Shown here: positions 14,859 to 26,897 of the stretch, one piece after another
Numbering within the stretch: the stretch's first letter is position 1
Layout of the letters: the number at the start of each line of letters is the position of its first letter
IMG/VR virus record: IMGVR_UViG_3300027770_000215
Coordinates: 1-26,897 of that record
Reading direction: 5' to 3' (one strand)
DNA: 26,897 nt
DNA from: a virus
Made by a program: the position numbers and the translations under genes
Notes under the pieces: generated by a model
Seen by the model: only the letters and a program-made list of their open reading frames with translations
What the model was told of the DNA's origin: nothing
Database searches by the model: none

Positions 14859-16109
14859 TTAAGAGGCCGCACACTTCAAAGCTTTAAACGCAAGCGCTGG
14901 CAGTGTGAGAGCAATATCGACGCGATTTTGGAAAAGGTAGCCAGTTTGATTTGCGTCAGCGTATCGCTCACGAAGGGTTTTCATCTCAAAATTACTGCGT
15001 TGACCAATCACGCAATTATTTTTAAACGAACCAATCAAGCCAATAATCTTATTGGCGCCGACTGAATCCAAGCCAGCGGTAATATAAACTGGAATACCCA
15101 TCAGGCGGTCCGGCTCGGATTGATCCGTTGAATTAACCCACAAGAGATTAGTCAAACCGTTTGCGATATTTGGAAGCTGTCGAATCAATGAAGCAGTATT
15201 ATCATTGATAAGAATTACGGCATCTTTGCGGTATTGTCGCGGCAATGCATAAATCCAATCAATCACTTGCTTGGTTGTTGGACCAGTAATAACACTTGCG
15301 CTAGTGGTCAACGCCGCATCGGTTGTAATACCAACGGGTTGATTACTTGCGCCTGTACCTACAAGGAAACCAGTTTCCTCAGTTTCAGCGAGAATACGCG
15401 CGGCTTGCTCTGCGATGATGCTTTGCATATTGAAACTACGGGCGTTGGCATCCTCAATTAACTCGTTGGAAACCTTCAACAAACCCGCCAGGCGCTTAGG
15501 TGTAAGCGTTACGGCGGTGTAGGTTGGCGAGCTTTCTGACGGGGCTGTAGCTTCCGCGGTCCAGCCCGCAACCATTTGCGTGGCTTCCACGGCCACATTG
15601 CGTTGAAAACTGCCGCAATTCATAATTTTGCTTCCGCAATTTCGGACCGCATTTAGCGTCTGAATCTTGGCGGTCAACTGTGCATCATATTCAACTGGCG
15701 GAATAACCGTACCACCTTGGCCCGATGCTTCACCCAACGCTCTAATAAATTGTGGCGCTGTGTGTTCACCGTTGCGAAGATATTGCTCAAACGCATAGGC
15801 GTAACTTTCGGTGCTACGGATTTCCCATTGCTTGTTCAATTGTGCTTCACGCGCGTCGATTACCTTTGCAGACTCGCGAACCACTGGCGCGCCTGGAGTA
15901 TTCTTAGCGGTATTTTCCATGCCCATCAATTCCTCATTGCGCGCCTTTTGTGCGCCAAGCGTGGCGTAGGTTGCCTTGAGAGAATTATACTGAGCTTCTT
16001 GCTCAGTTGACATTCCAGCGTCCATTGCATTTCCAGCCTCTACCAATGCTGACATTTCTTGGTAGACCTCGCCCATCTTCGTCAACACTGTTTTGTAATC
16101 ACTAGCCAT
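14859..16109 (-). CDS. Major capsid protein 2, HK97 fold with N-terminal scaffolding (delta) region
   Basis: 416 aa. The first ~110 residues are a charged helical delta-like domain with a coiled coil, ahead of a likely protease cleavage area. The mature part begins ~FEQYLRNGEH, then GGTVIPPVEYDAQL, strands LLKVSNELIEDA near the E-loop side, ETGFLVGTGASNQPVGI, and an A-domain ending in ERYADANQTGYLFQNRVDIA. All are hallmarks of HK97-fold capsids. Strong SD AAGGA in a leader of its own. The gene directly before it encodes another capsid protein of the same fold, so this phage has two. Confidence 0.88.
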   Translation of the reverse strand: MASDYKTVLTKMGEVYQEMSALVEAGNAMDAGMSTEQEAQYNSLKATYATLGAQKARNEELMGMENTAKNTPGAPVVRESAKVIDAREAQLNKQWEIRSTESYAYAFEQYLRNGEHTAPQFIRALGEASGQGGTVIPPVEYDAQLTAKIQTLNAVRNCGSKIMNCGSFQRNVAVEATQMVAGWTAEATAPSESSPTYTAVTLTPKRLAGLLKVSNELIEDANARSFNMQSIIAEQAARILAETEETGFLVGTGASNQPVGITTDAALTTSASVITGPTTKQVIDWIYALPRQYRKDAVILINDNTASLIRQLPNIANGLTNLLWVNSTDQSEPDRLMGIPVYITAGLDSVGANKIIGLIGSFKNNCVIGQRSNFEMKTLRERYADANQTGYLFQNRVDIALTLPALAFKALKCAAS

Positions 16110-22143: not shown

Positions 22144-22289
22144 GACTGAATCGCCACCCCCCCCGTACGTCCGTTTTTAGTGGCGTTTTTGGGTCAGAAT
22201 CGCCACTATTGGGGAGTAAGTGGCGTTAGTGCGTCAGAATCGCCACTTTAGGGCGTTTAGTGGCGTTAGCGCGTCACGGCTGGCGCAGT
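22144..22289. repeat. Candidate cos/pac: hairpin-forming repeats with 40-bp period
   Basis: Two 29-bp repeats at 22179-22207 and 22219-22247 share agtggcgtt...cagaatcgccact; each carries inverted ends agtggcg/cgccact. A third, degenerate unit begins at 22259 exactly 40 bp further, overlapping the HNH stop, and a half unit gaatcgccac is at 22148-22157. The region 22007-22143 between this and the promoter holds AT-rich DNA with no other clear feature. The position between HNH and terS is where cos lies in HK97-like phages. Confidence 0.65.
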
Positions 22290-24501: not shown

Positions 24502-24687
24502 CTACTTGCTAGGAATGCTACGGTGGCCTTGGTATCCGCGCTGGCGTGGCGCCAAGCGCTTTACATCAGCTTGTGTAAATACCATGGTGCTACCTATTCG
24601 TTTACCAATGCCAAGTGTGCGCGCTCTGCGCCACACACCTGGCAAGCTGCAACCCAGCGCGGTGGCTACGTCTTTAGCACTAAGCAT
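24502..24687 (-). CDS. Excisionase/MerR-like helix-turn-helix protein
   Basis: 61 aa: AKDVATALGCSLPGVWRRAR is a helix-turn-helix and STMVFTQADVKRL is the wing and following helix of the excisionase-like HTH_17 group. With no integrase here it is more probably a small transcription regulator than a Xis. It starts 7 nt inside the upstream gene. Confidence 0.7.
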   Translation of the reverse strand: MLSAKDVATALGCSLPGVWRRARTLGIGKRIGSTMVFTQADVKRLAPRQRGYQGHRSIPSK

Positions 24688-25040: not shown

Positions 25041-25373
25041 CTATAAACGTATGCCACCGCGCCGGCCACCTGTTTTCTTGCCTGGCTGTCGTTCCCGCAA
25101 GTGTTCACCCGCTGCGGCTATTGTAATTCGTACAACGTCTTGGGCGCGGTTCTTATCTTCGGTGCAAAGCATGAGCTGGACCCGCAAGTGTTCCAGCGCG
25201 TCCCTGTCCGCCTTGGCTTGCGACACCGCGGCGTCTAGGCGCCCTAGGAACCCTAGCAGCGAGTCGGCAGCGGCGTAGGCGCCGTTAGCCCTAAGACGGT
25301 CTAGGATTCGATTAAAGCGCTCTAGCTCAGTCAAGGGGCGCCGCGCTCTCTTGAGGGGTTGGGGCGCCCCCAT
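25041..25373 (-). CDS. Small basic coiled-coil protein, 110 aa
   Basis: 110 aa with basic ends (KRARRPL and GKKTGGRRGGIRL) around a helical, Ala/Leu/Arg-rich centre with heptad spacing. Overlaps the replication gene by 47 nt. Not recognised; nucleic-acid binding is plausible from charge. An AAGGGA lies 9 nt before ATG. Confidence 0.6.
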   Translation of the reverse strand: MGAPQPLKRARRPLTELERFNRILDRLRANGAYAAADSLLGFLGRLDAAVSQAKADRDALEHLRVQLMLCTEDKNRAQDVVRITIAAAGEHLRERQPGKKTGGRRGGIRL

Positions 25374-25890
25374 TTAGGGGCGTCCCTTTGTATATACTTG
25401 TAAGTACATTTGTAAGGGGTGTGACTGTATAGCCCCCTGTTCGTGATAGTATAGCCCCCTGTTCGTGATTATATAGCCCCTTCGGTACCTTTGCTGGGTC
25501 GGTTAATTCATAGGTTGCGGACTCGATTCCTTGGCGTTTTTTTATCACAATGACTACCCCCTTTCGTATTAGTTCCTTGAACCCAATCGAAATTCTGCGG
25601 TGATCTACCCCGCCTTTGACGCCTAGAATTACACCTTTATTTTCGTGCAATGCGGCGCCGTACTGGGTGGCTATCGCCTTGTGGCCACAGCGCCACTGGC
25701 ACGTATCCCAGCGCCCTCGAATGCTGAACCCTAATAGGATTTGCAGCGCTGGCTTGCTCAGGGTGTGCATGGTGTGGGTATTCATCCACTCCCCTAGCCG
25801 GCGGTTCAGTTCCTTCATGGACCCACTGCGCCGCGGCTGTTTCTTGTTTAGCTTAGTGGGCAATGCGCCCGTGTAGACGCCCTTGCCCAT
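25327..25890 (-). CDS. Replication initiator-like winged-helix protein with internal iterons
   Basis: 187 aa. Begins MGKGVYTGALPTKLNKKQPR, then helices MKELNRRLGEWMNT and KPALQILLGFSIRGRW, HKAIATQYGAALHENKGVIL and a wing-like strand VVIVIKKRQGIESATYEL; these form a plausible winged-helix DNA-binding domain of residues ~45-130, as in phage replication proteins. The last third is low in structure and is encoded by the tandem 22-bp iterons. It follows the primase-helicase gene with a TAATG overlap, as lambda O and P are paired. Function by context and fold; family not identified. Confidence 0.65.
   Translation of the reverse strand: MGKGVYTGALPTKLNKKQPRRSGSMKELNRRLGEWMNTHTMHTLSKPALQILLGFSIRGRWDTCQWRCGHKAIATQYGAALHENKGVILGVKGGVDHRRISIGFKELIRKGVVIVIKKRQGIESATYELTDPAKVPKGLYNHEQGAILSRTGGYTVTPLTNVLTSIYKGTPLNGGAPTPQESAAPLD
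25389..25486. repeat. Three tandem 22-bp iterons plus AT-rich flank: candidate replication origin
   Basis: Units at 25421-25442, 25443-25464 and 25465-25486, each gtga..gtatagccccctgttc; the first two differ at only two bases and the third is degenerate at its right end. Because 22 is not a multiple of 3, each repeat is read in a different frame, so the conservation is of DNA rather than of protein. An AT-rich stretch (25389-25415) lies beside them, as a duplex-unwinding element would. Confidence 0.7.
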
Positions 25891-26897
25891 TACCCTAGAA
25901 TCTCAAATTGTTGGTGGGCGCCTGAGAATGCGGTGGTGAAATCCTTTTGCTCGCCGTGGCGGTTCTTCATGCAGCGCCAGGTGATCCGTTTCTTCCCGTT
26001 TTCTAGCAGCGACTCGTCTAATGCAATTTCGCCAACGAATAACGAATCTACTTGGTAGTCAATTTCACTTGATTCTTTACCGATGTTGCCTATGCGGTAC
26101 TCCCCATTCTGTTTCGCCATATTGCTTATTAGGATCACGGCTAAATTGCTACTGATCGCTAGCGCCCGTACGCCACGGATGACGCTATCTATTTCCGTTC
26201 GCCTGTCAGCGCGCGGGTCTATACCGTTTACCAACTGCAAATAATCTATAACAAGTATACTGGCGCCCGCGCGCTCCACCACTTGCGCCATGTTCGCAAA
26301 GTTTAAAGGTGGCATTATAATTTTTATTCTGTCGGCGTACGCGTGTAGGTTTTCTGCCACCGCTTGCGCGGCCTCTGTTTTCTGTATTGCTTGGTCTAGG
26401 GTTACGGTTGCCTTGGTATCCCAATTTGCAATGGCGCGCGCGGCTATGGCGGTCTTAGTCATTTCGCCCAGGCACCATGCGGAAACTAAATCAGGGTTGG
26501 CTTGGGTTGCGTCTAGCACAATCTGTAGCGCCAGCGCGCTCTTGCCTACGCCCGGCGCGCCTGTAAAACAAACCAACTGGCCACGCTTCAGCCCGCCTAG
26601 CGCCACGTCTAGCCAGGTATTCGTTTCAATGGTGGGAAGCTCTTTACTATGCAACCACTCATGGATGCAACCCGCAAGTGTGTCGGCTTGCGCCGTGTCC
26701 GTATCGTCGAACACTGGCGCCGTGTCCTCAGCGCGGTCCATGATCGGAGTACGCTCTTTACCAAAGGCGTTGCGTATTTGGCGTGGTAAATCTGCAAGCC
26801 CGTCAGCGTCCAACCCCAGCGCTGCTGCTTGAACCATGAGTAGACGCGCGGCGTGTTCCCGTTCCCATCCGCGCGCGTGTAAATCGCAAGCCACGGT
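25702..26897. repeat. Right copy of imperfect 1196-bp terminal duplication
   Basis: Counterpart of 1-1196 at offset 25,701. Mismatches are absent or rare up to 26284 and frequent beyond (about 7% from 26285 to the end by eye). Confidence 0.9.
25890..26897 (-). CDS. Primase-helicase, C-terminal part of strain-variant copy
   Basis: The frame is open to the window edge; it corresponds to residues ~229-562 of the full protein at 189-1877. Walker A and B are kept. Seven substitutions are seen, e.g. I325V, R359Q, N389K, P391T, E406A, A409E and S428A, five of them within 389-428. It is not a separate gene, but the same gene from a second strain in the mix. Confidence 0.85.
   Translation of the reverse strand, partial: TVACDLHARGWEREHAARLLMVQAAALGLDADGLADLPRQIRNAFGKERTPIMDRAEDTAPVFDDTDTAQADTLAGCIHEWLHSKELPTIETNTWLDVALGGLKRGQLVCFTGAPGVGKSALALQIVLDATQANPDLVSAWCLGEMTKTAIAARAIANWDTKATVTLDQAIQKTEAAQAVAENLHAYADRIKIIMPPLNFANMAQVVERAGASILVIDYLQLVNGIDPRADRRTEIDSVIRGVRALAISSNLAVILISNMAKQNGEYRIGNIGKESSEIDYQVDSLFVGEIALDESLLENGKKRITWRCMKNRHGEQKDFTTAFSGAHQQFEILG

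Follow-up and report, generated by a model that had tools for sequence, protein, structure and literature searches.

Three 22-bp iterons inside the gene of an orphan protein mark a probable replication origin in an uncultured phage

In lambdoid phages, the middle of gene O contains iterons and an AT-rich tract, and the O protein is a dimer (PMC7466680). A similar arrangement is found at SPP1 oriL, where direct repeats and an AT-rich unwinding element are located inside gene 38, which encodes the origin-binding protein (PMC6316719). The oriV of IncQ plasmids contains three iterons of approximately 20 bp together with AT- and GC-rich regions and palindromes, and replication involves a helicase, the RepB primase, and RepC (PMC7557826), while the Rep helicases of SaPI and SCC elements bind to repeats that closely follow the helicase gene (PMC7581432). 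Here we analyze a locus in the virus record IMGVR_UViG_3300027770_000215, of which the whole stretch from position 1 to 26,897 (26,897 nucleotides) is referred to as the window. An original prediction, made from the letters alone, had proposed a lambda O-like origin near 25.4 kb with iterons inside an initiator gene.

A 22-bp repeat array within a protein-coding gene

The window contains three 22-bp repeats arranged head-to-tail on the minus strand (25484-25419). Tandem Repeats Finder (array 25427-25480, period 22, 2.5 copies, 93% matches, score 94) and a pattern scan agreed with the prediction that the iterons occupy the 3′ part of a gene, here nucleotides 411 to 470 of a 564-nt open reading frame (ORF), or 73 to 83% of its length. 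The best period within the array segment was a lag of 22, and among the tandem arrays that Tandem Repeats Finder detected in the window, this one ranked second by strength. A pattern derived from the copies matched these three sites in the window and no others, with 0 expected from 100 shuffles. Scanning with a position matrix did not yield a fourth copy, as the best other site in the window scored 13.0, compared to 25.8 to 28.1 for the iterons. The coordinates of all features are given in Table 1.

Table 1. Features of the iteron locus and its surroundings (window coordinates)
Feature	Coordinates	Strand	Basis or remark
Iteron 1, CGAAGGGGCTATATAATCACGA	25463..25484	-	Pattern and position-matrix scans
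Iteron 2, ACAGGGGGCTATACTATCACGA	25441..25462	-	Pattern and position-matrix scans
Iteron 3, ACAGGGGGCTATACAGTCACAC	25419..25440	-	Pattern and position-matrix scans
187-codon ORF, proposed initiator, orphan	25327..25890	-	ORF list, family and relative searches
Block nearly unchanged compared to L003 (4/102 codons changed)	25318..25635		Codon comparison
Candidate unwinding element (AT-rich, 67% AT)	25386..25421		Melting scan; unchanged in L003
GC-rich imperfect inverted repeat spanning the start codon of the next ORF	25361..25386		Unchanged in L003
110-codon ORF, downstream	25041..25373	-	Conserved in L003
Primase-helicase gene (RepB_primase and DnaB_C), 3′ part only, truncated where the window ends	25890..26894	-	Domain search

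Because 22 is not a multiple of 3, the iteron copies are read in three different frames (...KGLYNHEQGAILSRTGGYTV...). The tandem score of the array (28) exceeded the maximum reached in 200 codon permutations (11) and in 200 synonymous recodings that preserved the protein (14.5). Codon usage over the array was −0.17 bits per codon, compared to +0.15 before and +0.14 after it. Since the score lies above that of every recoding and codon usage over the array is unlike that of a gene, the repeats are a DNA feature written over the protein; they exceed both chance and what the protein requires. This bears out the earlier proposal, based on a period that is not a codon multiple, that selection acts on the DNA.

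In agreement with the original remark that no sequence relation to known origins was recognizable, searches at the DNA level revealed no relation to any phage or plasmid record. Iteron pattern scans found the iterons in a single relative (L003, described below), and all other matches were coding repeats or unrelated arrays. A GATAGTGGGCTATAGCGTTGGT-like repeat occurs three times on a short viral contig (L012, 3155-3208), next to a very GC-biased stretch, and no replication gene was seen on that contig. Two further viral contigs (L011, 6-138, and L005, 13571-13628) carry tandem GGGGCTATACAGGCTCAGCCCCTAC repeats that are unrelated to the window array.

Conservation of the locus in a relative

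Searches of viral contigs, bacterial and archaeal genomes, phages, and plasmids with the 187-residue protein identified one true relative, IMGVR_UViG_3300009185_000146 (L003), which is 93% identical over the aligned residues. The Burkholderia and faecal-phage matches were rejected as chance, having neither a matching replication ORF nor a phage context. In L003, the only relative found to keep the protein, the three iterons are all present and differ by a single base, in line with the prediction. Over the 13 shared genes that were compared by codon, 36% of codons differ between the window and L003. The 187-codon ORF holds the longest unchanged codon runs among these genes, in the part that includes the iterons, with 0 changes in 43 codons, 1 in 64, and 4 in 102 (25635-25332), and 0 of 2,000 permutations reached any of these three runs, although the permutations assume independent codons and a recombination tract could also give such runs. 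The conserved block reaches about 150 bp upstream of the iterons.

The two phages could therefore share a recent recombination tract that accounts for the conservation, with the repeats being minor or neutral. Consistent with this, the comparison involves two genomes only, the conserved block is sharp-edged and extends past the iterons, and a second patch of low divergence lies at 24684-24495. Replication modules have also been exchanged in the group: in L089 (10059-10252), an unrelated gene directly follows the ssb-like gene and takes the place of the primase-helicase gene of the window, and the replication module is thus exchangeable. The array, however, stands independently of the conservation, as it exceeds all synonymous recodings and has atypical codon usage, and we consider a mere recombination tract highly improbable. 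A short helix-turn-helix/excisionase-like ORF at 24502-24684 differs from L003 at 5 of 58 degenerate codons, compared to 44% for the neighboring ORF.

The host gene and its surroundings

No match to the 187-residue protein was found in Pfam or NCBIfam, a search of PDB sequences returned nothing, and tblastn against phages detected no O protein. By inspection, residues 96 to 129 (approximately) form a helix-turn-helix and wing-like stretch, in which DHRRISIGFKELIRKGVVIVIKKRQGIESATYEL resembles a recognition helix followed by a wing. The sole PHROG with an E value below 1 was phrog_678, annotated as “replication initiation O-like” (E = 0.11; residues 92 to 143, 52 residues); this match is weak and colinear, and phrog_678 matches one ORF in this genome but also rings in 14 of 14 control genomes. 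A profile comparison with eight O proteins using hhalign gave a probability of 1.7%, and the phrog_678 match is the only hint of a family. AlphaFold models from two-sequence alignments had a mean pLDDT of 34.5 and 38.0 in two runs, which is too poor for a fold search. The array and the gene neighborhood suggest that the protein functions as an initiator, and both the protein and the iteron sequences appear to be new to the collections searched.

The primase-helicase gene, named as a neighbor in the prediction, lies directly upstream of the 187-codon ORF, and its stop codon overlaps the ORF start (TAATG); the two genes are probably translationally coupled. Its product combines a RepB-type primase domain (PF16793, E = 1.8e-9) with a DnaB-like helicase domain (PF03796, E = 3.2e-21), and a full copy, a close variant, is present at 189-1877. 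Further upstream are a short conserved ssb-like gene, a phrog_19042 ORF, and an exonuclease VIII-like gene. The ssb-like label reflects size and position only, as this protein had no family match. With the exonuclease VIII-like gene and the primase-helicase, the gene context is that of a replication module, and no loader was identified.

This gene order also bears on the question of which protein recognizes the repeats. An origin at the iterons might be recognized by the primase-helicase itself or by a host protein, leaving some other role for the 187-residue protein, given that about 410 nt separate the primase-helicase stop from the first repeat downstream and that SaPI and SCC elements provide a precedent for repeats directly downstream of a rep gene (PMC7581432). 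We regard this as unlikely, because helicases of the DnaB-like type, to which the helicase part belongs, normally depend on a separate initiator for recruitment, and because the repeats lie inside a second gene that encodes a helix-turn-helix-like stretch.

Downstream of the iterons, the predicted AT-rich neighbor is real but mild. This 36-bp stretch falls in the 99.2nd percentile for ease of melting at 30 bp, the 98th at 40 bp, and the 92nd at 100 bp, and it lies outside the easiest-melting DNA of the window. The adjoining GC-rich inverted repeat has a 10-pair stem with one G-T pair and a loop of 6; it is imperfect as DNA and, on its own, weak evidence. RNA folding of 25327-25490 gave a z-score of −2.4, and GC-rich pairs form close to the next start codon. 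The window contains no Rfam family and no tRNA.

The downstream 110-codon ORF shares 47 nt with the 3′ end of the 187-codon ORF, and the array ends about 45 bp before its start. The repeats could accordingly be operators through which a regulator, perhaps the 187-residue protein, controls this ORF or operon, rather than an origin, and the whole stretch is unchanged in L003, including the inverted repeat over the start codon. There is, however, no promoter-like site at the array on the minus strand, and three direct 22-bp repeats next to AT-rich DNA and a primase-helicase gene fit an origin better, which makes a purely regulatory role doubtful. Iteron initiators often autoregulate, so operator and origin functions could coexist.

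A GC-skew turn near 25.4 kb, proposed as a check on the origin, was not found: the skew falls steadily through this position and, with nearly all genes on the same strand, carries no information about the origin. The window ends (1-1193 and 25702-26894) repeat each other over 1193 bp with 96.1% identity (46 mismatches, no gaps), and this terminal repeat appears to reflect a circularly permuted or circular genome of ~25.7 kb whose ends derive from different strain variants. Three related contigs (L014, L015, and L016) all start at one homologous base, AATCCACGCACACG..., and this common start suggests a putative cos cleavage site at about 22116/22117 on the minus strand, between an HNH gene (22630-22274) and the terminase small subunit gene (22057-21485). 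A 40-bp repeat containing GAATCGCCAC occurs in 2.5 copies at 22179-22276, and related repeats are found at the same place in L017. Since they adjoin the putative cos site, these repeats are probably terminase-binding sites; as a candidate for a rival origin they were set aside, the packaging (cos) region being the better fit. The genome also has two adjacent genes of the HK97-type capsid family PF05065 (16204-17292, E = 7e-23, and 14859-16109, E = 8e-45); two different capsid proteins in tandem are unusual.

Comparison with described origins and a proposed mechanism

For comparison, the tandem-array scan was also applied to nine O genes, either known or annotated as such, and it recovered the iterons annotated within lambda O and within gene 15 of phi80. 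Arrays with a period of 20 to 24 were located at 39 to 54% of the gene in lambda, phi80, P22, Gifsy-2, mEp043, 4C10, and PSA04, whereas the O gene of PAJU2 showed a 33-bp period and that of one Salmonella phage a 14-bp repeat only. Synonymous recodings sometimes reached the observed score in P22, PSA04, PAJU2, mEp043, and the Salmonella phage with the 14-bp repeat.

As in lambda (and the phi80, P22, Stx, and Gifsy-2 types), iterons with a period of ~20 to 24 bp lie in an initiator gene, the initiator being a proposed one here. They are located 3′ of the DNA-binding part, and, as at lambda ori, AT-rich DNA (in the window a candidate unwinding element) and a helicase or helicase-loader gene (here the RepB_primase and DnaB_C gene) adjoin. 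However, a defining feature of the lambda O type is that each iteron is an imperfect dyad to which an O dimer binds, while the window iterons are asymmetric, with dyad arms of 3, 3, and 2 bp compared to 3 to 7 bp, mostly 5 to 7, in lambdoid iterons; a first dyad test, run without an open center, was less clear for phi80 and P22. The array also lies further toward the 3′ end of its gene than the 39 to 54% seen in O genes, the helicase gene is upstream rather than downstream, and protein homology to O is not established. Of the proposed lambda O-like origin, the placement of iterons inside a probable initiator gene is supported; assignment to the narrow O type is not supported, given the lack of dyads, the weak protein match, and the position of the array.

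Compared by description only, SPP1 oriL combines asymmetric direct repeats and an AT-rich element in an initiator gene, an anatomy that agrees with the window and its proposed initiator gene, although SPP1 has a separate loader (gp39), a helicase (gp40), and a second origin. IncQ oriV, served by the RepA helicase, the RepB primase, and the RepC initiator, resembles the window in having three iterons, a similar layout, and a RepB-type primase (PF16793). In contrast to the window, oriV is intergenic. The window primase forms one protein with a DnaB-like helicase, its iterons differ in sequence from the published IncQ-3 iteron, there was no plasmid DNA match, and no RepC homologue was recognized in the window. 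The locus might conceivably be an IncQ-like strand-displacement replicon in a tailed phage, with an orphan winged-helix initiator acting on three asymmetric iterons in its own gene and the RepB-type primase/DnaB-like helicase fusion, independent of host DnaB and DnaG, priming at the GC-rich inverted repeat, but we consider this very unlikely. Like the window, Rep-type origins of SaPI and SCCmec have a replicative helicase gene that is followed by short repeats. Their repeats are intergenic and are bound by the helicase itself, whereas those of the window fall within another ORF and the window helicase is DnaB-like. The window thus resembles known origins at the level of sequence organization, yet homology to any of them is not established.

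We favor, with a probability of roughly 0.6, the reading that the array is the core of the phage origin and lies within the gene for the phage’s own initiator. A winged-helix-like domain of the 187-residue protein (residues 45 to 130, approximately) would bind the three asymmetric 22-bp iterons, and with a spacing of about two helical turns, all bound copies would sit on the same face of the DNA. The protein-iteron complex would then open the adjoining AT-rich stretch, after which the phage’s own primase-helicase would be brought in and replication would start. The locus is probably a functional origin whose design is known but whose orphan initiator and iteron sequence are new.

Together, these analyses predict, from sequence, where replication starts in an uncultured phage group. 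Placing an origin within the initiator gene is a recurring design, and the initiator and iterons described here appear to be an unrelated addition to it. If the protein is unrelated to lambda O and SPP1 gp38, this design arose, or was repopulated, more than once.
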